64,000 bases of DNA from IMG/VR virus record IMGVR_UViG_3300009502_000021, positions 1 through 64,000 of that record; one strand, 5' to 3'. The position numbers were made by a program, and so were the translations under genes. This document shows positions 28-56,656 of the stretch, piece after piece (position 1 is the first letter of the stretch; every line of letters starts with the position of its first letter). The notes under the pieces were generated by a model, which did no database searches, was not told the origin of the DNA, and saw only the letters and a list, made by a program, of their open reading frames with translations. The DNA comes from a virus.

Positions 28-113
28 TGGTAGCGGGGGGACGATTTGCACATCCGAACCTTTTCAGGACTGGATTATGAGCCCAGTTTCGTTGACTACT
101 TGAATACCCCGCA
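28..113 (-). tRNA. tRNA-Met (CAT), initiator-like
   Basis: On the minus strand a cloverleaf can be drawn: acceptor stem, D arm, anticodon arm with loop CTCATAA (anticodon CAT), a long variable arm (CCT, GAAA loop, AGG), a T arm with loop TGCAAAT, discriminator A and an encoded CCA. Positions 1 and 72 form a T.T mismatch above a GCGGGG/CCCCGC stem, which resembles bacterial initiator tRNA. The initiator's three G:C pairs in the anticodon stem are only partly kept (two G:C, one G:U). Initiator use is an inference. Confidence 0.8.
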
Positions 114-125
114 ACAAACATTTCT

Positions 126-192
126 ATGTGGCCGGTGGGGTATCTTGGTACTCTGTACCATGCCCATCCTCCGTTTACTTTCCTTACCACAT
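126..192 (-). ncRNA. structured RNA element in tRNA cluster
   Basis: A 6-bp perfect inverted repeat (ATGTGG at 126-131, CCACAT at 187-192) encloses a tight hairpin (TGGTAC, 3-nt loop, GTACCA, 146-160). The unit is tRNA-sized (67 nt) but has no anticodon arm, T loop or CCA. It lies between tRNA-Met and the first tRNA-Ala, so it should be part of the same transcript. Function unknown. Confidence 0.45.
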
Positions 193-268
193 AAAATCAA
201 AACTAGACGACCTTTTGCCGCTGGGATAAAACCAGCACCACTTATCGGGAAGGCGGCCGAACCTTATT

Positions 269-348
269 TGGTGGAGTATGTCGGCATCGAACCGACCTGC
301 ATATTCTCGGTGCAAGCGAGACGTCCACTCCAAGCAGACCCATACCCC
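269..348 (-). tRNA. tRNA-Ala (TGC), copy 1
   Basis: The minus strand folds as acceptor GGGGTAT/ATACTCC with the G3.U70 wobble that AlaRS needs, a D arm, an anticodon stem TCTCG/CGAGA with loop CTTGCAC (anticodon TGC), an 8-nt variable region, T loop TTCGATG, discriminator A and encoded CCA. Its body differs from the second TGC tRNA at 425-500, so it is not a recent duplicate. Confidence 0.85.
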
Positions 349-424
349 AAATTTAGTAGGATTCTCTCACCCTTGTCAAGTCTGATTCGCCCGACTTTCT
401 CTAGCCATCTTTTCAATGGCAATT

Positions 425-500
425 TGGTGGAGGTGACAAGGATCGAACTTGCGACATTTTGGTTGCAAACCAAACGCTCTACCAACTGAGCTACACCCCC
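425..500 (-). tRNA. tRNA-Ala (TGC), copy 2
   Basis: Canonical 76-nt tRNA on the minus strand: acceptor GGGGGTG/CACCTCC with G3.U70, a standard D arm, anticodon loop TTTGCAA (TGC), T loop TTCGATC, discriminator A and encoded CCA. Confidence 0.93.
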
Positions 501-507
501 AATAAAC

Positions 508-702
508 TTACTTAGCTGCCTTGATCTGTTCGCCAAAAGTCTTTGTGACGTTGGCACCAAATGCAAGCAAGCTCTTTGTATACGCAGCCTGTGCTTCCGC
601 GAGCTTTACTAGTTCACGACGTGTTTCAACGTGTGGAACATGATCCGCAAAACTCTTGAACGAAGCCAAACCATCATCTACCATTGTGTCGAAATTAAAC
701 AT
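508..702 (-). CDS. small helical protein, unknown function
   Basis: A 64-residue protein, rich in Ala and Lys and likely helical; the spacing of residues faintly recalls phasins, which is not enough to name it. The start at 702 is preceded by AGGAGA, and a late-type box CATAAATA lies at 728-735, giving a short normal leader. It stands alone between tRNA-Ala and the acetyltransferase gene and appears to be a late gene. Confidence 0.75.
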   Translation of the reverse strand: MFNFDTMVDDGLASFKSFADHVPHVETRRELVKLAEAQAAYTKSLLAFGANVTKTFGEQIKAAK

Positions 703-727
703 TGTAGTGTCTCCTGTACTGACATAG

Positions 728-735
728 TATTTATG
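728..735 (-). promoter_or_regulatory. late promoter (CATAAATA)
   Basis: CATAAATA on the minus strand, one mismatch to the T4 late box TATAAATA, about 25 nt upstream of the start at 702. Confidence 0.6.
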
Positions 736-756
736 TCTGCTCGCTGCACTGCAACA

Positions 757-1347
757 TTATTCTCTGTTAGAGTAAAATCTCTCTACTATCGGATTTATTC
801 TCTGTTTAATCTTTAGAGATGGTATGAGCAACTTATTCTCCGTGAACGTCGTGGTAGTTACTAATACTAAAGTGTCATCTTCATCAGAGTAATAATTCTG
901 ATACGCATCTTTAGCATCACGCGATACGATCTCACCAGTTGATGTATCCATGACTGCCAAATTGAATGCTTTTGACAACGTAGACCATAGTTTCTTACCA
1001 TCTAGTGTTTGTCTATGACCACTCATTAGATTTACATGTTCATTGTGTGAAATCGAATGATACATTCGAATCCCCAACTCTTGTCCTCGATACCTAGGTG
1101 CGACCTGAACACCATTAGTTTGAAAATACGTTGTACTATGTATTTTGGTTGGAGTGCATAATGTACCAGCTATAACCTTGTCGTTATCTAATAGGTAGTA
1201 AACAAACGAGTTTACTCCAAATCTATTTTTCTTCATCGGGTAACCGTTGATTTCGTGATTAAACCCAAAATCAACTTCATCATCGCGAGGTACCCTGGAT
1301 AACTCCAGTCCGCCTTCGTGGGCGATTGTAATCTCTTTAATTTGCAT
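757..1347 (-). CDS. GNAT-family acetyltransferase-like protein
   Basis: A 196-residue protein whose middle (about residues 81-97) reads QVAPRYRGQELGIRMY, the acetyl-CoA-binding motif A of GNAT N-acetyltransferases (V-P-x-YRG-x-G-L/I-G). The N-terminus MQIKEITIAHEGG resembles the short charged/hydrophobic leaders of the ADP-ribosyltransferase-like proteins elsewhere in the window. The late box AATAAATA ends only 5 nt before the ATG and no ribosome-binding site is visible, so the mRNA may be leaderless. Substrate unknown; it could act on the host or be packaged in the virion (inference). Confidence 0.75.
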   Translation of the reverse strand: MQIKEITIAHEGGLELSRVPRDDEVDFGFNHEINGYPMKKNRFGVNSFVYYLLDNDKVIAGTLCTPTKIHSTTYFQTNGVQVAPRYRGQELGIRMYHSISHNEHVNLMSGHRQTLDGKKLWSTLSKAFNLAVMDTSTGEIVSRDAKDAYQNYYSDEDDTLVLVTTTTFTENKLLIPSLKIKQRINPIVERFYSNRE

Positions 1348-1352
1348 AACAG

Positions 1353-1360
1353 TATTTATT
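1353..1360 (-). promoter_or_regulatory. late promoter abutting start codon
   Basis: AATAAATA on the minus strand with 5 nt between its end and the ATG at 1347; transcription would start at or near the start codon. Confidence 0.55.
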
Positions 1361-1379
1361 GTCCTACTTGTTACACGGT

Positions 1380-1685
1380 CTAATTATGCTTTATGTACTC
1401 TTTCTTCATGTACGAATCTAAAGCATCAACAATCTTCTTTACTCTATCGAGCTGGTTAGGACCAGTTCGATGCAATGTATTCTGGTGTAGATTCTGCAAC
1501 TCTAGTACGAGTTGATCCTCTGTGATATCTTGGTTTCTGATTTGCTCTAGCACAACCTTGTATTTGGTTGCGCACTCTGCAACACCAGCCGCATACGGAA
1601 AGCCGCTTGCGCAAGCACCTTTGTTCTCCAACGCTTCAATCAACATTTCGACATGTGGTTGAAGATCATCATACTTGAAAGCCAT
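1380..1685 (-). CDS. hypothetical helical protein
   Basis: About 101 residues, mostly helical, with no family recognised. GAGG five nucleotides before the ATG at 1685 sets this start rather than the GTG two codons upstream. Confidence 0.75.
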   Translation of the reverse strand: MAFKYDDLQPHVEMLIEALENKGACASGFPYAAGVAECATKYKVVLEQIRNQDITEDQLVLELQNLHQNTLHRTGPNQLDRVKKIVDALDSYMKKEYIKHN

Positions 1686-1794
1686 ACACACCTCGTTACC
1701 ATTACAAAGTCAGAATTGAAACCCCCCATCACGGCTACCACACCTTACGATGTCCTGTGACCGCACTACAGGTTACATGGCGTGCTTCAAAATT

Positions 1795-1870
1795 TGGTGC
1801 CGCCCCCCGGGATCGAACCGGGCACACTACGCTCTTCAGGCGTATGCTCTACCAACTGAGCTAGAGCGGC
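1795..1870 (-). tRNA. tRNA-Phe (GAA)
   Basis: Canonical 76-nt cloverleaf: acceptor GCCGCTC/GGGCGGC, D arm GCTC/GAGC, anticodon stem TACGC/GCGTA with loop CTGAAGA (anticodon GAA), T loop TTCGATC, discriminator A and encoded CCA. Confidence 0.95.
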
Positions 1871-1878
1871 ATAATAAG

Positions 1879-1978
1879 ATGCTGATGGTGTTTACCTACG
1901 TTTCAGTCCCCGAGTTAAACACAACCCTCGGACTTACTCTGCTAGGAAGTAGGGCGGGTCTTAACCGCACATCAGCAT
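1879..1978 (-). ncRNA. cloverleaf-like RNA, not a tRNA
   Basis: A 9-bp perfect outer stem (ATGCTGATG 1879-1887 with CATCAGCAT 1970-1978) encloses a GCGG/CCGC hairpin (1954-1968), a short CTA/TAG arm and an 8-bp bulged arm (AGTC plus CGAG at 1905-1914 with CTCG plus GACT at 1927-1934). The overall shape is a four-way junction like a tRNA, but there is no anticodon arm of 5 bp/7 nt, no TTCRA loop and no CCA. It lies between tRNA-Phe and tRNA-Asp, 8 and 4 nt from them. Confidence 0.6.
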
Positions 1979-1982
1979 TGTT

Positions 1983-2062
1983 TGGCGACCGACAGGGGTA
2001 ACGATCCCCTCTGAATATCTTGCGTGACAGGCAAGCGACCACTCCATGCAGTCCCGTCGGCC
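1983..2062 (-). tRNA. tRNA-Asp (GTC)
   Basis: Acceptor GGCCGAC/GTCGGTC, D arm GACT/GGTC, anticodon stem CTTGC/GCAAG with loop CTGTCAC (GTC), an 8-nt variable region, T stem AGGGG/CCCCT, discriminator G and encoded CCA. The T loop ATCGTTA lacks the usual TTCRA. Confidence 0.85.
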
Positions 2063-2068
2063 ATAAAT

Positions 2069-2157
2069 TGGCTGGTGGAGTTGGATTCGAACCAACGATG
2101 AGGAATTAACCTGACAGATTAACAGTCTGTTCTCTGCTACCACTCGAGTACCCACCA
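2069..2157 (-). tRNA. tRNA-Asn (GTT) with long variable arm
   Basis: Acceptor TGGTGGG/TCCACCA, anticodon stem ACAGA/TCTGT with loop CTGTTAA (anticodon GTT, Asn), T loop TTCGAAT, discriminator G and encoded CCA. Between the anticodon and T arms lies a 17-nt variable region that can form AGG/CCT, a class II feature normally found in Ser, Leu and Tyr tRNAs. The anticodon arm also resembles that of tRNA-Tyr, so descent from a Tyr tRNA is possible. Confidence 0.82.
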
Positions 2158-2161
2158 AAAA

Positions 2162-2791
2162 CTACTCGTGAATGAATTGTTTCGCTATACCAATATAAGT
2201 CTTGGTATCTTTAAACATTTTCTTCCACTCTATTCTTAACACTTTCCAACCGGCTTCGGCTAGAACTTGGTCTTTTCTTTTATCGCGCGCCTTAACTTCG
2301 TCAAAGCGTTGATGCTGCTCGCCATCAATCTCTATGGCCAATTTTTTATCAGGCCACGCAAAGTCAATTGCATAAATGCCAACAGGATATTCCCTGCTGT
2401 AATTCTTATCTTCAAATTCGTTTTCGATAACTTGTATGAAGAATTTTTCTGGCCAGGATGGCTCGTTATTCCAACGACTTTTTCCTATGTTCCACGCAGT
2501 ACCGTTATCGTGCCGGGCTTTCATCTTAGCAGCAAGTTTTGCTTTTGTTTCGAGAGTATGCCGTCGCTTAGATGATCTAGCTGATAACTTTTGTCGTGTC
2601 TCCTTCGATATTACCGGAGGAGGTAAACCCAACTTTTTCGCCTTTATGAATTGATTTGAATTTGATACTTTGTCTCGGTTGTTTTTCATCCATGTAACTT
2701 GTTTATTGGGGTTGTTATTGCACAACCGCTCATGATTTAACAAGCTATTTTGGCTCTTACACATTCGATCACAAAACTTACAATTGGACAT
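2162..2791 (-). CDS. homing endonuclease, Vsr/DUF559-like
   Basis: A 209-residue protein. Residues 4-24 form a C2H2-like finger (CKFC, then H and C). The middle, about residues 60-100, is a basic NUMOD-like DNA-binding region. The C-terminus holds a PD-(D/E)XK-type nuclease core of the Vsr/DUF559 kind: IDFAWPDKKLAIEIDGEQH, a spaced DKRKD and a final GWKVLRIEW. Free-standing homing endonucleases of this type occur in phages. The start has AGGAG upstream and its own late box (GCTAAATA). It sits between a tRNA half-gene and tRNA-Asn, as expected for an element that invaded the tRNA cluster. Confidence 0.85.
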   Translation of the reverse strand: MSNCKFCDRMCKSQNSLLNHERLCNNNPNKQVTWMKNNRDKVSNSNQFIKAKKLGLPPPVISKETRQKLSARSSKRRHTLETKAKLAAKMKARHDNGTAWNIGKSRWNNEPSWPEKFFIQVIENEFEDKNYSREYPVGIYAIDFAWPDKKLAIEIDGEQHQRFDEVKARDKRKDQVLAEAGWKVLRIEWKKMFKDTKTYIGIAKQFIHE

Positions 2792-2810
2792 TTGGTAGTG
2801 CTCCTGTCTA

Positions 2811-2848
2811 TGTATTTAGCTGCTCTACCGCTGAGCTACTTACCAATA
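2811..2848 (-). pseudogene. 5' half of a tRNA gene, with overlapping late promoter
   Basis: The minus strand shows a canonical D arm (GCTC-AGCGGTA-GAGC) preceded by an acceptor-like strand, then passes directly into GCTAAATACAT, the late promoter of the endonuclease gene. The anticodon and T arms are missing. No matching 3' half is seen on the far side of the endonuclease, where a complete tRNA-Asn begins. Confidence 0.6.
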
Positions 2849-2854
2849 AACTCT

Positions 2855-2902
2855 AATAACGGTGCCACCCAGTCCGCCGTTTGCAGACCATATTCCGTTA
2901 TT
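2855..2902 (-). ncRNA. stem-loop RNA element
   Basis: An 8-bp perfect inverted repeat, AATAACGG (2855-2862) with CCGTTATT (2895-2902), closing a 32-nt loop; immediately followed by another unit of the same kind. Confidence 0.45.
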
Positions 2903-2904
2903 CT

Positions 2905-2950
2905 GACTGTGCCCTTTCTTTCGTCTACAGAGTTTTGTTAATGCACAGTC
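2905..2950 (-). ncRNA. stem-loop RNA element
   Basis: An 8-bp perfect repeat, GACTGTGC (2905-2912) with GCACAGTC (2943-2950). Its left arm on the plus strand overlaps the next unit's stem, so the two folds may be alternatives. Confidence 0.45.
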
Positions 2951-3011
2951 CCCAAACTCAATCTACCAAATGGATTATCGCCCTCTTCTGACGGCCCGAG
3001 TTTACGGACTG
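2946..3011 (-). ncRNA. two-tier stem-loop RNA element
   Basis: CAGTCC (2946-2951) pairs with GGACTG (3006-3011) and AAACTC (2954-2959) with GAGTTT (2998-3003), a 12-bp stem with a small internal loop. Confidence 0.5.
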
Positions 3012-3065
3012 GACGCAAGGCTTCAAAAGCCCCGACTTACACCACAAGAAAAAGTGACTGCGTCC
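3011..3065 (-). ncRNA. stem-loop RNA element with inner hairpin
   Basis: GGACGCA (3011-3017) pairs with TGCGTCC (3059-3065); inside, GGCTT and AAGCC (3019-3031) form a tight hairpin. Confidence 0.5.
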
Positions 3066-3090
3066 CCACCTTATATATTTACGCAATCTA

Positions 3091-3139
3091 GTTGCACGCC
3101 GATAGAAAGTGTAGACGGTATGTTCAATGTCTGTGCAAC
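3091..3139 (-). ncRNA. stem-loop RNA element
   Basis: A 7-bp perfect repeat GTTGCAC (3091-3097) with GTGCAAC (3133-3139) closing a 35-nt loop. Confidence 0.4.
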
Positions 3140-3165
3140 CGCCACCGTAGTACACTAGGGATATA

Positions 3166-3215
3166 TCGGAGCCCCCTCTCGGCGTATTTTCAACGCTGGT
3201 CCACGGCGCCGTTGA
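3166..3215 (-). ncRNA. short hairpin beside a repeated G-rich motif
   Basis: TCAACG (3190-3195) pairs with CGTTGA (3210-3215). The adjacent minus-strand motif CCGAGAGGGGGCTC (3168-3181) recurs at 3378-3391, in both cases directly next to a hairpin. Confidence 0.35.
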
Positions 3216-3297
3216 TCAGGCGACGACGGTTAGCTATTTTTATGTGATAGTTTACCGACCAAATTCAAAATATAATACAAGGCCACCATCCTGTATT

Positions 3298-3348
3298 GTG
3301 ATCGTACTCCTTAATATTGGTTGCTGCAACTCACCTCAGTACGATCAC
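3298..3348 (-). ncRNA. long perfect stem-loop RNA element
   Basis: An 11-bp perfect inverted repeat, GTGATCGTACT (3298-3308) with AGTACGATCAC (3338-3348), with a GTTGC/GCAAC hairpin in its loop. This is among the strongest structures in the cluster. Confidence 0.55.
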
Positions 3349-3413
3349 CAGTTGCCACGCCAGGGGTCTGGCTTGACTGAGCCCCCTCTCGGTAGAGACG
3401 CTATCCTCTCTAC
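3349..3413 (-). ncRNA. paired hairpins with the G-rich motif
   Basis: GCCAG/CTGGC with a 4-nt loop (3358-3371) and TAGAGA/TCTCTA (3392-3411) flank the second copy of the motif CCGAGAGGGGGCTC (3378-3391). Confidence 0.35.
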
Positions 3414-3457
3414 TAGACTTCCAAAAGTATTAGTGGGCCGACCATCCACCAATTGAT

Positions 3458-3526
3458 GTTGTGTCCTATCGTTTGTACCAGGGCCTTGCTTATAGATATG
3501 TGGTGTAATGCCACATGACTCACAAC
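3458..3526 (-). ncRNA. two-tier stem-loop RNA element
   Basis: GTTGTG (3458-3463) pairs with CACAAC (3521-3526); inside, ATGTGG (3498-3503) pairs with CCACAT (3511-3516). Confidence 0.4.
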
Positions 3527-3564
3527 CTCCCGCCCACGCATACAGAGCATGTATCGTATAGCCC

Positions 3565-3599
3565 AACTACGGTTGACGATCATCAACAAGGACTTAGTT
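3565..3599 (-). ncRNA. nested hairpin element
   Basis: AACTA (3565-3569) pairs with TAGTT (3595-3599) around a GTTGA/TCAAC hairpin (3572-3587). Confidence 0.35.
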
Positions 3600-3644
3600 T
3601 AACACCAAGCAACACCTTGCGGTATTCTTCACGCCTTTATAGTG

Positions 3645-3726
3645 GGCCTCTTGTCCCCACGCACATCGCCGATTCTCACGGCCGGCTCCTTTGTTCCATC
3701 TCAGGGCATACAAGTATGCGGGATGG
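3645..3726 (-). ncRNA. hairpin pair
   Basis: GTGGG/CCCAC forms a hairpin near 3645-3660. CCATC (3696-3700) with GATGG (3722-3726) encloses GCATAC/GTATGC with a 2-nt loop (3706-3719). Confidence 0.35.
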
Positions 3727-3743
3727 AGGTTTGCTTCACTGAA

Positions 3744-3834
3744 TTTGACGAACAAGGACTCGAACCTTGTATTAACCCCTTTGGAATCGAACCGTTCGGT
3801 GCCGCCGCGCCGCCTCACCAGAGGAATCGTCAAA
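3744..3834 (-). ncRNA. tRNA-like RNA with a canonical T arm
   Basis: An 8-bp outer stem (TTTGACGA/TCGTCAAA) encloses a CCTC/GAGG arm and a true-looking T arm, CAAGG/CCTTG with loop TTCGAGT. No 5-bp/7-nt anticodon arm and no CCA are found. It could be a decayed tRNA or a tRNA mimic. Confidence 0.5.
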
Positions 3835-3841
3835 ATTTGAA

Positions 3842-3923
3842 TGTCCCAACGGTTTTGAACCGTCTACCGGGCCACAAGGACCCTGCTGTGACCAACACCG
3901 AGCGTGGCCTACGCCCCGGGACA
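3842..3923 (-). ncRNA. tRNA-like RNA without CCA
   Basis: The minus strand gives a 7-bp acceptor-like stem (TGTCCCG/TGGGACA), a D-like arm GCGT/ACGC, a 7-bp arm GGTCACA/TGTGGCC in the anticodon position with a 10-nt loop, and a T-like arm ACGG/CCGT with loop TTCAAAA. The end reads TCA, not CCA. Size and layout match a tRNA, but the anticodon arm does not. Confidence 0.55.
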
Positions 3924-3927
3924 AAAT

Positions 3928-4005
3928 TGGAGCACCGAGTCAGATTTGAACTGACGATGGTTTCGTTTTGCAGACGAATGCGTTGGACCACTCCGCCACC
4001 GGTGC
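3928..4005 (-). tRNA. tRNA-Cys (GCA)
   Basis: Acceptor GCACCGG/TCGGTGC, anticodon stem TTCGT/ACGAA with loop CTGCAAA (GCA), T arm GTCAG/CTGAC with loop TTCAAAT, discriminator U (normal for Cys) and encoded CCA. Confidence 0.93.
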
Positions 4006-4017
4006 ATTATATAGTTG

Positions 4018-4077
4018 GGGCAATGACGGACCGGTGATTAGCCGGAATCCTTAGCTTATCAGGCTTAGTCATTGCCC
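4018..4077 (-). ncRNA. cloverleaf-like RNA element
   Basis: A 10-bp perfect outer stem (GGGCAATGAC 4018-4027 with GTCATTGCCC 4068-4077) encloses a CCGG/CCGG arm with a 7-nt loop and a short AGC/GCT arm. Confidence 0.55.
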
Positions 4078-4086
4078 TCATGTAGT

Positions 4087-4136
4087 GCGGCGGGTTTGGG
4101 TTTACCGCCAACCCCAAGTCATTTGTATGGACTTGG
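4087..4136 (-). ncRNA. two hairpins upstream of tRNA-Tyr gene end
   Basis: GGCGG/CCGCC (4089-4109) and a 7-bp CCAAGTC/GACTTGG hairpin (4114-4136). Confidence 0.4.
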
Positions 4137-4141
4137 ACATT

Positions 4142-4227
4142 TGGTGGGCCAGGTAGGGTTCGAACCTACACCCCGATGGGGACTTCCGCTTTACAGGCGG
4201 ATGCACTTCCACTTATGCGTCTGACCC
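4142..4227 (-). tRNA. tRNA-Tyr (GTA)
   Basis: Acceptor GGGTCAG/CTGGCCC, D arm GCAT/GTGC, anticodon stem TCCGC/GCGGA with loop CTGTAAA (GTA), class II variable arm CCCC/GGGG, T loop TTCGAAC, discriminator A and encoded CCA. Confidence 0.94.
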
Positions 4228-4236
4228 AAATAAAAC

Positions 4237-4273
4237 GTGCGTTTGAAAGGAACACTGACCTTTCTCGACGCAC
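4237..4273 (-). ncRNA. two-tier stem-loop RNA element
   Basis: GTGCGT (4237-4242) pairs with ACGCAC (4268-4273) and AAAGG (4246-4250) with CCTTT (4259-4263). Confidence 0.45.
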
Positions 4274-4289
4274 AGCGGCATAAAATAGG

Positions 4290-4463
4290 GGCGGAATATC
4301 GGATCCGCCAAACGATGAGAGTTGCACTCACAGGTAGGTTGATAGGAACTAGTATACCTCGTACCTTCTGCTTGAATTCACGCACCTTTTTTCGTGATAC
4401 GTCTGGACAGCTTGCCAGCTTTGACCGCCACTTGCTCTCGCCCCCTGTTACCCGTTGCAACGG
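4290..4463 (-). ncRNA. stretch with several hairpins, no gene seen
   Basis: GGCGGA/TCCGCC with an 8-nt loop (4290-4309), TCACG/CGTGA near 4378-4397 and the self-palindrome CCGTTGCAACGG (4452-4463). No tRNA or supported reading frame was found here. Confidence 0.3.
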
Positions 4464-4527
4464 TTGGCAGCAGGTCCGAGTAGATCGGTACGGGCTCGTT
4501 GTGACTCGCGATTGCTCAGCGTAGTCG

Positions 4528-4668
4528 AATGGGAAGGGATGACACGGGTTTTCACCGCAAACGGACAAGTCACTCCGTATTTTATTTCGCATCCAGCAGA
4601 ACTCGGGAACTACCCCTTTACCACCAGTGCGTATTTGTCGGACTCGATCACCGACCCATCATCCCATT
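4528..4668 (-). ncRNA. large structured RNA element
   Basis: AATGGGA (4528-4534) pairs with TCCCATT (4662-4668), and GATG (4538-4541) with CATC (4657-4660), an 11-bp stem with an internal loop around about 115 nt that includes a GTCGG/CCGAC hairpin near its end. It lies just upstream of tRNA-Leu on the plus-strand map. Confidence 0.45.
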
Positions 4669-4675
4669 GAAACAG

Positions 4676-4760
4676 TGGTGCCCGAAGAGGGACTCGAACC
4701 CCCACACCTTTCGGCGCCTGATTTTGAGTCAGGTGTGACTACCAATTCCACCATTCGGGC
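4676..4760 (-). tRNA. tRNA-Leu (CAA)
   Basis: Acceptor GCCCGAA/TTCGGGC, anticodon stem CCTGA/TCAGG with loop CTCAAAA (CAA), class II variable arm, T arm GGGGG/CCCTC with loop TTCGAGT, discriminator A and encoded CCA. Confidence 0.95.
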
Positions 4761-16909: not shown

Positions 16910-17605
16910 TTATTCTCCTAATACCTTTGAAATAAAATCATATCGATCGGCGTGCTTTTCGCGTGTTGTGGCAACAACATCGACACATGGCAAGCAATAT
17001 GGCCGTGACACCTTTGATACGTAATGGTGCTTCGACTTTAAAAAGACATCACCACACAACGAGCACAAATAATAATTGCCCGAGCTGTGGTTACCATATC
17101 GGTCATCCTTTAGAATACCATGTGGCAATTCCTTAAGGTATGCATACAGTTCCTGAAATCCAGCATCGGTACCATTCTGATAAAAGATGCGAGTCGATAA
17201 TGCCTTGAGCCAGGATGGAACATGCTGGAACTCGGACACAATAAACAACGGCTTCTCGTTGTCGTAGGTACACTGGCATTCGGCAAACGAGCCAGCACCA
17301 TCCTTAAAGGATTGGTCGTAATATGCAATCACTGCATCGGCATCGTCGATGATAAGTCGCATGTCGGTATAGATGAACTGGTGCCTAATATTGGATTTGT
17401 TCTGAAGTGGGTTGGCTGTTGGGTCAGTTGTCATTACCGGACCATGCACCTCGGTGTACAGCACATCGAGCGCCGTAATGTCAATGGGCCTGTAATCCAT
17501 ATCTAAAAGGCGATTGGAACAAACTGTGCGCCATGCAGCGCCCAGGTTCACAGCCTTCTCCATTCCACCACTCAGGTATATCTTTCCTCGATGTTCTCTT
17601 GTCAT
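16910..17605 (-). CDS. nucleoside deoxyribosyltransferase-like protein with zinc ribbon
   Basis: 231 residues. The N-terminal 150 or so have KIYLSGGME, DDADAVIAYYD and GAGSFAE, the nucleotide-binding and catalytic-Glu regions of nucleoside 2-deoxyribosyltransferases. The C-terminus (about 180-212) adds two CxxC pairs (CSLC and CLPC), a likely zinc ribbon. It may remodel (deoxy)nucleosides or a related N-glycosidic substrate. ATGA overlap with the downstream HD protein's partner. Confidence 0.78.
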   Translation of the reverse strand: MTREHRGKIYLSGGMEKAVNLGAAWRTVCSNRLLDMDYRPIDITALDVLYTEVHGPVMTTDPTANPLQNKSNIRHQFIYTDMRLIIDDADAVIAYYDQSFKDGAGSFAECQCTYDNEKPLFIVSEFQHVPSWLKALSTRIFYQNGTDAGFQELYAYLKELPHGILKDDRYGNHSSGNYYLCSLCGDVFLKSKHHYVSKVSRPYCLPCVDVVATTREKHADRYDFISKVLGE

Positions 17606-18045
17606 TTCAACCTCGCCTTGATCTCAGTATAGAACTGATGATATTTCGCCATACGGGTAATGTCCTTTTCGGAAATTCCCTTTAACCGTCGGATGTCGGT
17701 ATTGTGTCTTAGATCTGAAAGTTTAACGCGCATGGCATCTTCATTGGCAAAAATGCGCTCTTTGTACTCGTCAAGTGTTTCGCCGGGCACTTTGGTAAGC
17801 GCCCTAATGCCGTTGATGACTCGTTCGGTTGCACCAATTACCCGAAGGTCGGCATATGTGGTTTTGGTATCTTCAATCACGTCGTGTCCGAGTGCAATAG
17901 CTTGCAGCTCTTCATCGTCGGATTTGAGATAGTGCATTACCTTGAGGGGATGCAAAATGTATGGGGCACCACCGCGATCAAATTGACCACTGTGTGCGTT
18001 GGTCACAAGTACCAACATCTTCCCAAGCAACTCACCGCGTTTCAC
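17602..18045 (-). CDS. (p)ppGpp-hydrolase-like HD protein
   Basis: 147 residues matching the hydrolase domain of SpoT/MESH1: HPLKVMHYL, GHDVIEDT (the HD plus ED motif), RALTKVPGETLDEYKERI and VKLSDLRHNTD. No synthetase domain is present, so it fits a small alarmone hydrolase that could lower the stringent response. Other HD phosphohydrolase substrates are possible. Coupled by ATGA to its neighbours. Confidence 0.82.
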   Translation of the reverse strand: MKRGELLGKMLVLVTNAHSGQFDRGGAPYILHPLKVMHYLKSDDEELQAIALGHDVIEDTKTTYADLRVIGATERVINGIRALTKVPGETLDEYKERIFANEDAMRVKLSDLRHNTDIRRLKGISEKDITRMAKYHQFYTEIKARLK

Positions 18046-18218
18046 TCATCGTCTCCACGAAAGAGATCATTCTTATTGAACTTCTTTCGATTGTACGAAC
18101 GATCCGATTCCACCAAACGTGGACGGAATTCTGGATCCTGCCGTAGTCGCTTCGCAACCGGGTTGCGACCAACTGAACGCATAAGCCAATTCGGATTGTC
18201 CACTCGCTTCGTCATCAT
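18042..18218 (-). CDS. hypothetical basic protein
   Basis: 58 residues, Arg-, Lys- and Asn-rich. GGAGA precedes the ATG pair at 18218, just after the upstream stop. Confidence 0.65.
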   Translation of the reverse strand: MMTKRVDNPNWLMRSVGRNPVAKRLRQDPEFRPRLVESDRSYNRKKFNKNDLFRGDDE

Positions 18219-18219
18219 C

Positions 18220-18453
18220 TTACTCTCCAATTTCCTGAAAGGGTTTCTTACCATCTAACATGCCCAATTGGGCCAACCAATAAATCTTCTCGGCCTTTTC
18301 CTTTACATCAAAAAGAGATTGGCCCATGTCCTCGATTCGCCATGCGCCCCGGCTCGTCTTGTACTCTAGCAACCACCTGGTGGAAGCATACAGTGACGGC
18401 ATCGGTCGAATACGGAGACGATCTCCAACTCGTGTAATCTTCGGCTCGGGCAT
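18220..18453 (-). CDS. hypothetical protein
   Basis: 77 residues, no family recognised; starts right after the upstream stop codon. Confidence 0.68.
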   Translation of the reverse strand: MPEPKITRVGDRLRIRPMPSLYASTRWLLEYKTSRGAWRIEDMGQSLFDVKEKAEKIYWLAQLGMLDGKKPFQEIGE

Positions 18454-18651
18454 TTACTCGTCCACTCCAGCAGCATATTCATACTGCGCCCTGTACACCT
18501 TGTTGTCAAAGTCTTCGGCGTGCGTCCGCCCAAACGTTTGGTGAACTACACCATCTTCGTCAACAAGCATATCAAGGTACCCATGCCGTTCCCAATGGCA
18601 ATTACCCGTAAATGGATACTGCCCGTTAATTCGTTGCTTCAATCTGTCCAT
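18454..18651 (-). CDS. hypothetical early protein
   Basis: 65 residues starting MDRLKQR; a strong AGGAGG precedes the ATG at 18651. First gene after the promoter at 18672-18700. Confidence 0.72.
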   Translation of the reverse strand: MDRLKQRINGQYPFTGNCHWERHGYLDMLVDEDGVVHQTFGRTHAEDFDNKVYRAQYEYAAGVDE

Positions 18652-18671
18652 ATCGTACCTCCTATATACAT

Positions 18672-18700
18672 AGTGTAGCATCAAAACAGAAAAAATGCAA
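18672..18700 (-). promoter_or_regulatory. sigma70 promoter
   Basis: TTGCAT, 17 nt, TACACT on the minus strand. Confidence 0.7.
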
Positions 18701-18789
18701 CTGCTAAGTCCGTTTATGAATCAACATGTTGCGTACTTTTATCCTCTAGTCAATTATATAGCAGTTGACCCCGTATCACAACCGTTTTT

Positions 18790-18797
18790 CATAAATA
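18790..18797 (+). promoter_or_regulatory. late promoter (CATAAATA)
   Basis: Late-type box on the plus strand with a normal leader and AGGAGA before the ATG at 18817. Confidence 0.6.
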
Positions 18798-18816
18798 ATT
18801 GGACAGGAGATCCCAC

Positions 18817-19167
18817 ATGAGCCTTTTATCTATTCTTAACTATTTTTGGATTGGGGTGGGTATCTTTACACTGCTATCAATTATTGCCGGGGTGTTCTCC
18901 AGTGACCGCACCTGGATGAAATTGTTTGCAGTTGGTTTCGATGTGTTCATCAACATCATTACCGGTGGCACCTTTGATATTACCATTTCGGCTCGTGCTG
19001 GTATGGCAGAGATTGATGGTAAGAAGTGGGGCAAATACATGTCGTACTGGTTGGGCAAATGCGAAAAGAATCATTGCCAACTTGCCATACAGGCCGACAT
19101 AGACAGGGCTAAGTTGGTTATTGCCCAACTTAGCCCATACGATGCTAGAAACAAACCTGTTGCTTAA
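18817..19167 (+). CDS. hypothetical membrane protein, late
   Basis: 116 residues with a hydrophobic N-terminal segment (WIGVGIFTLLSIIAGVF) and a second weaker one (VFINIITGGTFDITI), then a soluble tail. One of only six plus-strand genes. Confidence 0.75.
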   Translation: MSLLSILNYFWIGVGIFTLLSIIAGVFSSDRTWMKLFAVGFDVFINIITGGTFDITISARAGMAEIDGKKWGKYMSYWLGKCEKNHCQLAIQADIDRAKLVIAQLSPYDARNKPVA

Positions 19168-20544
19168 TTACTGAGCCTTAACGCGCTCTCGAATCAAGCT
19201 CAGGCTTTCCTCGCGTACCAGCTTACCATCTTCGTACACTACTTCAAGCACTGGATTGTGGACATGGTCACTACCTTCAATATCGGTGTGGTATGTATTG
19301 TTGATGTGATTGTAGTAGAGTTCCAAGCGACCCTTCTTTGACTTCTTGCCAAAATCCGTAACGGGATCCTTAAACACATCGCGCCATACGCCGTTCACCT
19401 TGACTGCGCTTGCCTTCATTGCAAACTTTTGCGTGTCCCGGTTCATGTGCTGGAGCAACGCACCACCCATACCAAACGCCACGTTATCCGCACTGTAGCC
19501 CATCATCCAAAGCCTTGCGAGAATGTCCTTAATGCTCTGCTCGTTGATGCCGTCACCTTGGATGACACGAACATTGTTGAGTAGCTTGTACCCATCTTTG
19601 GTTAGTGTGTGACCAAACTTCTTGTCCAGCAGTACCACCGAATGTGCAACAATGTCTGTTGGGTTACCCGAGTCCGGACGAACGACAAGCGTAGCACCAC
19701 TGTCGATCACTTGCTGGCGTAGTGTACCACCCCAGATGTTCTCAATGGCGTTGAACAGATCGTAGCTGTCGGAAACTACTGCAACTAGCGCACCGGGCTT
19801 GGCGAACTGCTTCAGCATATTTGCGTAAGCATCTTCCTCATGCTCCTTGCCCCAGCTGGTAATAGTGCTGTGTTCCGCTGCCGGAATACTAAAGCCCGCC
19901 ATGTGCTCGTTGTAATACTTGCGGGCGAACATTAGCGCCGGAACGTTGTCGGTACCCTTGAAGTTTACAAGATGTGCAGCACCACCAATAGCCGCACTCT
20001 CCAGCGAACTTACGCCACGCGCACCAAAGTCGTGCAGCTTGAAGTCAAGACCATCGAGGTTGTTGGCACTGGTATCCAGTCGCTCCTTGATGATCTGGCG
20101 AATGCTATGACTGATCGTTGCCACTGTGGTGGGATACCATACCGCACGAAGCAGGGCAGTCTCAACGTAGCTCGTCAACCAGGGCACTTCTGGGTCTGTG
20201 TTCTCCACCGTGACCAAAACGTTATGCGTTGGGACAATCGTTCCTTCGCGCACTGCCTTGATCTTGATTGGCAGAAAGCCATTGTGCTGGAGAAGAATGT
20301 GCTTCCACCCCGCCTCATTGAAGGGCACACCGTGTAGCGCATACACTTCCTTCGCCTCCGCGATATCTTCGTATGTGATCGGCTTCAGCAGGTATTCCTT
20401 GATAAATGCCTGCAGGCCGAAAAATAGCGTGTGATCATATTCGCCCCCGCGTGACTCGATGTAACTGAATACATTGGTTGTACCTTCTGGGTACTGCGCG
20501 AAATGCGAAACCTTGTACGAATCGGTATTTAGAATCATGTTCAT
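19168..20544 (-). CDS. nadV: nicotinamide phosphoribosyltransferase
   Basis: 458 residues, the normal family length. Motifs include LNTDSYKVSHFAQYP, KLHDFGARGVSS, FSIPAAEHSTITSWG, VRPDSGNPTD (PRPP/phosphate site), VIQGDGI and VAFGMGGALLQ. It makes NMN from nicotinamide and PRPP. With the NadM-Nudix protein at 20865-21944 it completes a two-step route back to NAD, known in phages as a way to restore NAD depleted by host defences. The leader matches that of the NadM gene. Confidence 0.95.
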   Translation of the reverse strand: MNMILNTDSYKVSHFAQYPEGTTNVFSYIESRGGEYDHTLFFGLQAFIKEYLLKPITYEDIAEAKEVYALHGVPFNEAGWKHILLQHNGFLPIKIKAVREGTIVPTHNVLVTVENTDPEVPWLTSYVETALLRAVWYPTTVATISHSIRQIIKERLDTSANNLDGLDFKLHDFGARGVSSLESAAIGGAAHLVNFKGTDNVPALMFARKYYNEHMAGFSIPAAEHSTITSWGKEHEEDAYANMLKQFAKPGALVAVVSDSYDLFNAIENIWGGTLRQQVIDSGATLVVRPDSGNPTDIVAHSVVLLDKKFGHTLTKDGYKLLNNVRVIQGDGINEQSIKDILARLWMMGYSADNVAFGMGGALLQHMNRDTQKFAMKASAVKVNGVWRDVFKDPVTDFGKKSKKGRLELYYNHINNTYHTDIEGSDHVHNPVLEVVYEDGKLVREESLSLIRERVKAQ

Positions 20545-20590
20545 TTGGATCTACTCCTTAGTTAAAAAACGTGCCGGTCTACCCTGCACT
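20541..20590 (-). promoter_or_regulatory. conserved leader of nadV
   Basis: The leader carries GGTAGACC, a T-run and AACTAAGGAGTAGATCCA directly before the ATG. The same elements occur before the NadM gene (21942-21990), which suggests shared translational control. Confidence 0.5.
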
Positions 20591-20854
20591 TTACCATTCA
20601 ACAATCGTATACATATCGACAAACTGCCTTTCTTCGTAATAAAACGAAACCTTGAATCCGAGCTTTTCAAGTTTGGCCACTCCTTGTTTCCAATCATCCG
20701 ATTTACTATATCCACCATTAACCCAAAACGGATCATGCAATGCCACCTTACGCTTCTTGGCCTTGGCGGCTTCTTCAATCACCTTACCAGCATCTTCAAC
20801 TCTCTCATCAATTGTGGGACCTGCAAGGTTGCGTGCTTCATTTGCTGTAATCAT
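20591..20854 (-). CDS. hypothetical protein between the NAD genes
   Basis: 87 residues starting MITANEARNL, a start common in T4-like phage proteins; helical N-terminus and a beta-rich end. AAGGAG precedes the ATG. Confidence 0.75.
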   Translation of the reverse strand: MITANEARNLAGPTIDERVEDAGKVIEEAAKAKKRKVALHDPFWVNGGYSKSDDWKQGVAKLEKLGFKVSFYYEERQFVDMYTIVEW

Positions 20855-20864
20855 GTTGCTCTCC

Positions 20865-21944
20865 TTACGCCCTGTTAATCATCTTAGATGCAATCGAGTA
20901 GTGGTCCTCGTACATCTCTGCGGTCATTGTGTAAAACTTAGAAAGTGGAACCCACTTGGCGCGTTCAGCATCATCACTTCCGCGTACCTTTGGTAGGTTG
21001 CGCTCGTGTAGCACAATCAGATATGCGTGTGTAATCGTGCGTCCGCGTTCACTGCGGTTGGGATGATCAAATACTTGTGAACCTTTGATGCTGGCACGCA
21101 GCACATCTCCATGTATCCGAATGCGAGTCTCTTCTTCGAGTTCACGAAGCATAGAATCTTCAATCCTCTCATTTGGACCGAGGAAGCCACCGGGCAATGC
21201 CCACAACCCCTTACCCGGCGCCATACGACGCTTGATGAGTAGAATGTGCCCATTGCAAATGACCACAGCGTCCGTTGTCACAAACACTGGTTGGAATGGT
21301 GCATTGGACCACATCTGCTTATAGTCCTTAAGGAACTTGTGTTCTTCACAGAGTGCGTTATTAAGGGCGGGGTTATTCTGGCGCCACGTATCGATGAAAT
21401 TCTTTACGCGCTCGGGCATAACATCTGCCGGTACCATCTTGTTACCAAACAGAATGTCACGGATGGTAGTCGAGTCCAGTGTATCGAAGTTTGGAACCTC
21501 AACAACTTCGTAATTTGGAAACATATCGAGATAGTAAGACGAATCGTCTTTGTGGTGGCCAATGATACAAACAGACTTGCCAACTGCCGTATCATAAATG
21601 TTATCTAATTCGTTTTCGATTTCTTGCTGCACCATAGCAACCCACTGTTGGTCATTGTAGAGATCGTCTACAAGTGGTGCCGATATTGTGCCCGGGGGTA
21701 ACATTGCAGCCCGTTCGTCATAAGTGAACGGGTTCTTAATGTTGCGTGCAATAAAGGAACTGCCGATGAGCACCAGGACGTTGTCCGAATGCTTTTTGGC
21801 TTCCTCAATCAACTTTTCGTGGGCATTATGGAATGGCTGAAAGCGCCCGATGATCACTGCTAGATCATAGCGCCTGGGTGTGATGGCCTTATCGGACCAT
21901 CCCATTGGGGACTTGTGTATATGAGCTGTTGTATTCATTACCAT
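20865..21944 (-). CDS. nadM: bifunctional NMN adenylyltransferase/Nudix hydrolase
   Basis: 359 residues. Residues about 30-200 form the adenylyltransferase: IIGRFQPFHNAHEKLI (HxGH-type site, here HNAH) and a late STTIRD (ISSTxxR-type). Residues about 215-350 form a Nudix domain with the full box G-x5-E-x7-RELEEE (from GGFLGPNERIED). The family makes NAD from NMN and ATP; the Nudix half probably cleans ADP-ribose or related nucleotides. AAGGAG lies 9 nt before the ATG. Confidence 0.94.
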   Translation of the reverse strand: MVMNTTAHIHKSPMGWSDKAITPRRYDLAVIIGRFQPFHNAHEKLIEEAKKHSDNVLVLIGSSFIARNIKNPFTYDERAAMLPPGTISAPLVDDLYNDQQWVAMVQQEIENELDNIYDTAVGKSVCIIGHHKDDSSYYLDMFPNYEVVEVPNFDTLDSTTIRDILFGNKMVPADVMPERVKNFIDTWRQNNPALNNALCEEHKFLKDYKQMWSNAPFQPVFVTTDAVVICNGHILLIKRRMAPGKGLWALPGGFLGPNERIEDSMLRELEEETRIRIHGDVLRASIKGSQVFDHPNRSERGRTITHAYLIVLHERNLPKVRGSDDAERAKWVPLSKFYTMTAEMYEDHYSIASKMINRA

Positions 21945-55443: not shown

Positions 55444-55472
55444 AGCATACACAAAAAGAAAGGGGCCGTCAA
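55444..55472 (-). promoter_or_regulatory. sigma70 promoter with -35 in a terminator loop
   Basis: TTGACG, 17 nt, TATGCT; the -35 box is the 6-nt loop of the terminator at 55451-55480. Confidence 0.7.
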
Positions 55473-55480
55473 GCCCCTTT
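55451..55480 (-). terminator. terminator of the tmRNA gene
   Basis: AAAGGGGC/GCCCCTTT, 8 bp with a 6-nt loop, followed by TTTCTTTTTG (the T-tract partly overlaps the stem's end). Confidence 0.85.
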
Positions 55481-55499
55481 CTTGGTTGCTTAGGTTACA

Positions 55500-55797
55500 G
55501 AGTGTTTCCTACTCCGGCTCAGCTAGTTTTTAGGCTGCTAGAGCGTATGCACTATCGTTTGCATTTACGTTTTTACGCCGATTACGTCGGTCGTCTCTCG
55601 AGTGGTCAGTCATCCTATTCTCTGTCAATCGATCCCTTTCACCCCCATAGATACCGGAACGTTAACCCTATGGCGTTTAGGTTAACTACTGTCTGCCAAC
55701 CAGCCGGTATTTTAAATTGGTGGAAGTGGCGGCATACGATAGCCGCGTCTTGTCCAGTTTTACGAATCCCTCATACCACTATAACTTTTGTGGCATA
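55500..55797 (-). ncRNA. ssrA: tmRNA, circularly permuted two-piece form
   Basis: The minus strand encodes first an acceptor piece ending GCGGC-loop-GCCGC, CACTTCC, A, CCA (55718-55745), then an intervening hairpin (ATACCGG/CCGGTAT with GTTAACC/GGTTAAC inside), then a coding piece starting GGGGGTG (55640-55646). GGGGGTG pairs with CACTTCC over 7 bp including G3.U70, the alanine signal. The coding piece holds the tag frame GCAAACGATAGTGCATACGC onwards (55530-55562), reading ANDSAYALAA and stop, with a helix overlapping the tag end as in other tmRNAs. A terminator follows. Confidence 0.88.
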
Positions 55798-56537
55798 CTC
55801 GTTTTGAGTCTACCACGAATAAACCCGTTATCCAAATGTTCTGCCAATTGCGATATTTGAATTACATGCTCGTCTATACCATTATTTATCCAACAGGTGC
55901 TTACTCGATGTCCAAGTTTACCACGAACCCAACCATCTGGTATTGGTTCATCTTTACCTATTCTTCTCACCTCTTTGGTAAGAGTATTAGATATCCAGTA
56001 TTTTCCAAATTGACTATTGCCTTCTCCTGTTGCTTTTTCACTTATCTTTTTCTTGTGTTCTTCCCTTTCTTTGGGGGTAGCATGTTTCCAACCATTTCTT
56101 GGATTGGTTTTATTTGAGGTTTGAACCTTGTTCAACCAATTCCGATAATGTTCGGTGTGGTTTGCTTTTTGATTGGCCATAAATTCTATCAACTTCCTAC
56201 GTGCAATTTTTCCACCAACTCGGGCAGCTTCTTTATGTTGTTCAGAACCATTCCAATGATTCCATCCACCGACTCCACCAGTCCGTATATTATATGTGTC
56301 GGTTCTCTTGCAGAATTCTTCATTAACTATATTGAGTTCTTCAACCCACATGTCCTGTTCATTGTCAAATATATGCAATATTTCTTTGATGAAATGTTCG
56401 ATTCCGTATTTCTTTTTGGCTCGATTTAACGCATGTCCAGAGCCCATGTAACCGTCGTTGATGTCCCAAGTTACATGAGCACCAACATAAATCTTACCGT
56501 TTACGGTATTAGTAATTTTATAGATTAGGTACAGCAC
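55779..56537 (-). CDS. GIY-YIG homing endonuclease
   Basis: 252 residues from a GTG at 56537. LYLIYKITNTVNGKIYVGAH is the GIY-YIG core, with a Glu-containing helix and a NUMOD-like basic region; the tail has repeats such as STCWINNGIDEHVI. A late box (CATAAATA) ends 5 nt before the GTG. Its last codons run into the acceptor piece of the tmRNA gene. Confidence 0.84.
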   Translation of the reverse strand: MLYLIYKITNTVNGKIYVGAHVTWDINDGYMGSGHALNRAKKKYGIEHFIKEILHIFDNEQDMWVEELNIVNEEFCKRTDTYNIRTGGVGGWNHWNGSEQHKEAARVGGKIARRKLIEFMANQKANHTEHYRNWLNKVQTSNKTNPRNGWKHATPKEREEHKKKISEKATGEGNSQFGKYWISNTLTKEVRRIGKDEPIPDGWVRGKLGHRVSTCWINNGIDEHVIQISQLAEHLDNGFIRGRLKTSMPQKL

Positions 56538-56577
56538 AGTTGTATTTATGCCGGACGATAGTTCGATACTTATTTTA

Positions 56578-56656
56578 AATGTTGGATCGGTTGCATGGCC
56601 CTGATTACCCAACCACCCCTATGTCGTTAGGTGACTTACGATTGGTGTCCAACATT
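56578..56656 (-). ncRNA. structured RNA upstream of endonuclease
   Basis: A 9-bp perfect outer stem (AATGTTGGA/TCCAACATT) encloses CCAA/TTGG and CACC/GGTG pairs and a possible pseudoknot (GGTTG/CAACC). It could be a leftover of the tmRNA region or a separate RNA. Confidence 0.5.

Follow-up and report, generated by a model that had tools for sequence, protein, structure and literature searches.

Permuted tmRNA Gene of the Phage

The stretch of DNA analyzed here (the window, 64,000 nucleotides) is part of a 108,297-bp IMG/VR record and carries on its minus strand, at positions 55826-55455, a permuted gene for tmRNA, the RNA that frees stuck ribosomes. The tmRNA_permuted model (RF04321) matches positions 55780-55530 over its full length (model positions 1-213 of 213), and its score of 109.9 bits (E = 1.5e-20) exceeds the cut-off of 47; this match bears out the two-piece identity proposed in an initial annotation made from the sequence alone. 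The beta_tmRNA model (RF01850) covers the whole region 55826-55455 including the terminator (model positions 1-331; E = 1e-25), with a score of 83.5 bits just under the cut-off of 84, and the alpha_tmRNA model (RF01849) gives 63.6 bits against a cut-off of 50, which is lower than the beta model. The gene is described as a precursor region of beta-like type with a terminator (55455-55826) around a permuted core (55530-55780). The initial annotation had named ARAGORN and a permuted covariance model as checks; the latter gave the match above, and ARAGORN missed the gene both in the window and in the cut-out sequence, with a relaxed threshold too. This miss is a limit of the program and no argument against the gene.

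In the direction of transcription, the first mapped feature is the T-arm GCGGC-UAUCGUAU-GCCGC (55746-55729), a 5-bp stem that also forms in the minimum free energy (MFE) fold and that closes a variant 8-nt loop. The 3′-strand of the acceptor-stem, CACUUCC (55728-55722), and A73 with an encoded CCA (55721-55718; RF04321 match and sequence) follow. An intervening sequence of 71 nt (55717-55647), which contains the hairpin UACCGG...CCGGUA, then leads to the coding piece, which starts with the 5′-strand of the acceptor-stem, GGGGGUG (55646-55640), so that the reversed order of the two pieces is as first described. By analogy with known permuted tmRNAs, the intervening sequence is expected to be excised, leaving two pieces. 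All seven acceptor pairs form when G-U is counted, including the G3.U70 wobble already recognized in the initial annotation, which had passed over a second wobble, G4.U69. Downstream lie a 3-nt linker (AAA) with the D-loop GG...UCGA (55639-55628) and the tag reading frame ANDSAYALAA with its stop codon UAA (55562-55530), which the translation and the alignment to RF04321 confirm. The gene ends, as had been claimed, in a terminator of its own, a 12-bp stem with a 4-nt loop and a subsequent U-run (55483-55456), inside the RF01850 match. Folding of positions 55826-55454 without any model formed both the T-stem and the terminator, with a z-score of -3.9 relative to shuffled sequences.

The gene directly upstream of the tmRNA gene (55779-56612, minus strand) codes for a homing endonuclease of the GIY-YIG (SegE-like) type (PF19835, 30.3 bits, cut-off 25; PHROG 314), and 32 nt separate its stop codon from the T-arm. 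Matches in PHROGs to DnaB-type and UvsW-type helicases, a ribonucleotide reductase, and homing endonucleases within the record agree with the assignment to a phage. Transfer RNA genes lie at positions 28-4760 of the window, and the T-loops of those of the phage's own tRNAs that were seen in the Rfam output are canonical. At 19168-21944 (minus strand), genes for a nicotinamide phosphoribosyltransferase and a cytidyltransferase/NUDIX protein are likely a phage NAD-salvage pair. A ribonucleotide reductase gene at positions 17312-19968 of locus L123 (record positions 80312-82968) is split over two open reading frames, with a homing endonuclease domain fused to the N-terminal part (PHROG 367 and PHROG 314), an arrangement that is intein-like or represents a split gene.

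The initial annotation regarded a phage copy of a two-piece tmRNA as unusual. This view does not hold: such phage-borne genes are already known, and dozens were found in IMG/VR. A two-piece tmRNA has been described in phage Melnitz, together with 402 tmRNA-bearing phages (Buchholz et al., 2022; PMC9004378), among which 53 of the 133 unique tmRNA structures are two-piece forms (PMC9004378), and 79 unique sequences in a tmRNA database of 2025 come from bacteriophages (PMC11915505). Our tag-pattern scan of IMG/VR returned at least 120 loci, most of those listed being permuted tmRNAs according to ARAGORN, and RF04321 was passed by 33 of the 44 records tested. An isolate whose host is a gammaproteobacterium, Stenotrophomonas phage vB_SmaS-DLP_6, carries an unannotated permuted tmRNA gene beside tRNA genes (L122, positions 1360-1581; RF04321, 136.8 bits).

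T-Loop Class with an Internal Base Pair

Few portions of tRNA-like molecules are as conserved as the T-loop, which in tmRNA is usually 7 nt long. The window T-loop, which the initial annotation did not describe, departs from the canonical rule (7 nt, U54...A58, GUUYRANYC at positions 53-61) in being 8 nt long with the sequence UAUCGUAU. In the first scan, viral tmRNAs have T-loops of 7 nt (UUCGAUU, GGCAGUA, and others), save two 6-nt readings and L003, a locus from the tag-pattern scan of IMG/VR with the same 8-nt T-loop as the window. The viral permuted tmRNAs L057 and L108 were read as having a 6-nt T-loop of the GGGGU-UUCAAU-ACCCC type with a 3-nt linker (ACA, AAA), which is possibly another elbow variant.

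When IMG/VR was scanned completely for TATCGTA in the T-arm register, 113 stretches were returned, about half of them with a perfect 5-bp T-stem and an acceptor-stem. Among 50 records with such T-arms, the permuted model is passed by 26 and the standard tmRNA model by 21, indicating that the 8-nt loop crosses gene topologies. The T-loop of L444, the locus of a relative of the endonuclease, reads UCUCGGAG and pointed to a pair between positions 2 and 6 of the loop. When positions 2 and 6 were left free as C or G, the scan returned 33 perfect-stem T-arms (30 with an acceptor partner), all with C-G; none of the 33 had G-C, C-C, or G-G. A scan for U-A at these positions gave 23 T-arms, and a scan for A at position 2 opposite a base other than U at position 6 matched a single stretch, which has no T-stem and is not a tmRNA. 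Because the two-sided changes expected from such a pair were found and mismatched versions, although searched for, were not, the class is described by the rule U1-N2-U3-C4-G5-N6-A7-N8 with a Watson-Crick pair between N2 and N6. The triplet UCG is present in 30 of 30 C-G loops among the matches listed. Substitutions at U1 and A7, sought on an A-U background with a C-G closing pair, yielded no tmRNA; with no substitutions found at either position, a simple Watson-Crick U1-A7 pair is unsupported.

Besides the window gene, which has UAUCGUAU, the linker AAA, a 5-bp T-stem, and G3.U70, the class comprises 75 unique viral members (55 after stricter de-duplication), of which 39 are permuted and 36 standard. 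The N2-N6 pair is A-U in 46 members, C-G in 21, and U-A in eight; this final compilation was filtered on 2-6 complementarity, and the unfiltered test is the free C/G scan. The conserved loop is surrounded by 19 different T-stem sequences, and the acceptor identity element G3.U70 is retained in the class. Recognizable tag frames are present in most members in which one could be read. Among the frames returned by a simple script for L130, L135, L154, L175, L177, L190, L192, and L199, and for L134, L140, L173, and L189, several are apparent long tags of about 27-36 residues (e.g., ADDNTSDLLAEAEYIFNNADEFLGGIEEESYALAA), and others end in AV or LA and not in AA. ARAGORN detects five of the 75 members and misses 70. 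No description of this elbow variant was found in the open-licence literature searched.

The D-side of the elbow differs as well. The linker between the 5′-strand of the acceptor-stem and the GG of the D-loop is 3 nt long, mostly AAA or ACA, in 72 of the 75 class members. The same length occurs in four of the 73 viral tmRNAs that are permuted and have a 7-nt loop, where 4 or 5 nt are usual, and in three of the 20 cellular standard tmRNAs in which the linker was measurable (10 more were not). With the 55 stricter members, and with phages counted as independent, Fisher's test gives p ~3e-27 relative to the viral 7-nt set and ~4e-11 relative to the cellular set. Contacts between the D-loop and the T-loop are required for SmpB binding (PMC3968760). 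Judged by these sequence comparisons, the lengthening of the T-loop by one nucleotide and the shortening of the D-side linker look like a concerted elbow change.

Distribution of the Class and of the Upstream Endonuclease

The A-U pattern yielded no tmRNA in 399 Pseudomonadota genomes (around a Paraburkholderia) or in 396 Bacteroidota genomes (around a Mucilaginibacter), about 795 genomes for both phyla, and there was none among the 119 stretches listed from the contigs of the genome collection. Likewise, 399 genomes searched with the general pattern, its closing pair being C-G, yielded no tmRNA. T-arm-like matches of cellular origin such as GGCGGTATCGTACTCGTCC, in which four or five pairs of the stem form, were discarded: they lack a preceding GGAC, their stems are rich in G-U, and they also have a recurrent conserved flank that is protein-coding in appearance. 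The term “phage-specific” is used as a working claim that rests on a partial survey of bacterial genomes. In BLAST searches against isolated phages, the window tmRNA gave one short match, to Stenotrophomonas phage DLP_6, and seven other variant tmRNAs gave no match; thus, no cultured member of the class was found.

In L153, L178, and L204, homologs of the window endonuclease (44-49% identical) immediately precede variant permuted tmRNAs, and their reading frames also end just before the T-arm. The C-terminus GRLK.SM is conserved in the tmRNA-preceding endonucleases of at least four phages (the window, L153, L178, and L204), and further homologs occur near variant tmRNAs in L140 and L146. None was found among the loci fetched for canonical viral tmRNAs, and the association between endonuclease and variant tmRNA has p ~0.01, uncorrected and from small numbers. 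The endonuclease gene may be mobile together with the tmRNA. The idea that it always travels with a tmRNA was rejected, as a tmRNA lies in reach for only a few of the 80 best relatives. Most variant tmRNAs have no adjoining endonuclease of the GIY-YIG (SegE-like) type.

Possible Function of the Variant tmRNA

Taken together, the window gene probably encodes a functional, beta-like permuted tmRNA of the phage that belongs to a phage-specific elbow class with an 8-nt T-loop, a 2-6 pair, and a 3-nt linker. The tRNA-processing enzymes of the host would cut the transcript so as to separate its acceptor piece from its coding piece, the tmRNA would be charged with alanine through G3.U70, and host SmpB and EF-Tu would bring it to stalled ribosomes, where the tag ANDSAYALAA would be appended and lead to proteolysis. 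That the tag, the acceptor, and the CCA are intact favors genuine trans-translation by way of the SmpB of the host. Searches of the window's record and of 31 other variant-bearing records (32 in total, most of them fragments) revealed no SmpB gene, and a phage that supplies its own SmpB was accordingly set aside within this sample.

Stiffness of the elbow is normally conferred by modification of the T-loop. In the variant class, the internal N2-N6 pair may provide a rigid elbow without the m5U54 and pseudouridine-55 of the host, and an elbow that is rigid without modification would allow prompt function during infection and avoid the host enzymes that act on canonical T-loops. TrmA requires a 7-membered loop and TruB requires 53-GUUYRANYC-61 (PMC7912444); from these published substrate rules, the variant loop should escape both enzymes. 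Since the T-loops of the phage tRNAs are canonical, such an escape would benefit the tmRNA alone. Variation of the tmRNA elbow has a precedent in the GGCAGUA T-loop of tmRNAs of the Alphaproteobacteria type. It is tempting, although still tentative, to regard the variant as a distinct, modification-independent phage elbow that is common to standard and permuted genes and marks a viral lineage apart from cells, largely invisible to ARAGORN.

Other explanations of the variant loop were weighed against this functional reading. The window gene could be an ordinary beta-type permuted tmRNA that the phage took over from a host, with a T-loop that reflects inconsequential drift or early decay. A beta-like model matched over its whole length and the commonness of permuted tmRNAs in phages (IMG/VR; PMC9004378) accord with such an origin; however, the 8-nt loop is shared by tmRNAs with 19 different T-stem sequences and by both topologies, the changes at positions 2 and 6 compensate each other and are accompanied by a matching 3-nt linker, and the gene retains an intact tag, acceptor, CCA, and terminator, so that drift or decay is unlikely. 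We consider rather improbable an inhibitory or decoy role like that of the RNA of mycobacteriophage DS6A, in which the RNA would occupy the SmpB or the alanyl-tRNA synthetase of the host and thereby block its trans-translation. The DS6A sequence is barely more than a tRNA-like domain, a similar RNA strongly inhibits tmRNA (PMC4131195), and the lack of a phage-encoded SmpB in the 32 records would fit a decoy; a decoy would nevertheless need no tag, and in the window the tag frame is complete and ends in LAA; most class members, too, have recognizable tag frames where one is readable.

The altered T-loop might also shield the DNA by removing the attachment or cleavage site of integrases and homing endonucleases that act on the 3′-ends of tmRNA genes; tmRNA genes are often used for integration (PMC4383910; PMC11915505). 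This possibility draws on the GIY-YIG endonuclease that directly precedes the window tmRNA and three other variant tmRNAs and on the absence of a homolog from the fetched canonical viral loci. It is very unlikely, as protection of the DNA predicts neither Watson-Crick covariation at positions 2 and 6 nor a 3-nt linker on the D-side, most variant tmRNAs have no adjoining endonuclease, and most endonuclease relatives have no tmRNA nearby.

Significance and Comparison with Known tmRNAs

The window gene is confirmed as a permuted tmRNA of a phage and brings to light a new variant of the tmRNA elbow. A T-loop with an internal pair that was found in viruses only, in both tmRNA layouts, represents a natural experiment on the requirements of the elbow, and the variant class makes the elbow needs of SmpB, alanyl-tRNA synthetase, and the modification enzymes addressable. 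In addition, surveys that rely on ARAGORN undercount phage tmRNAs.

In its gene order, G3.U70 acceptor, encoded CCA, intervening sequence, resume region, LAA-ending tag, and terminator, the window gene resembles the tmRNAs described by RF04321 and RF01850, and it differs from them in the 8-nt T-loop with its 2-6 pair and in the 3-nt linker before the GG of the D-loop. Melnitz and further phages from marine sources likewise carry permuted, two-piece tmRNAs (PMC9004378). By contrast with the window gene, those of the Melnitz-type set are detected by ARAGORN, and no description of the T-loop was found for that set. The T-loop GGCAGUA of the alphaproteobacterial-type tmRNA, which is frequent among the viral tmRNAs of the first IMG/VR scan, departs from UUCRA as the window T-loop does; however, it is a 7-nt loop of another sequence, mostly combined with a linker of 4-5 nt. 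Finally, the DS6A RNA (PMC4131195) shares with the window tmRNA a phage-encoded tmRNA tRNA-like domain, but it has no tag, whereas the tag of the window tmRNA is complete.
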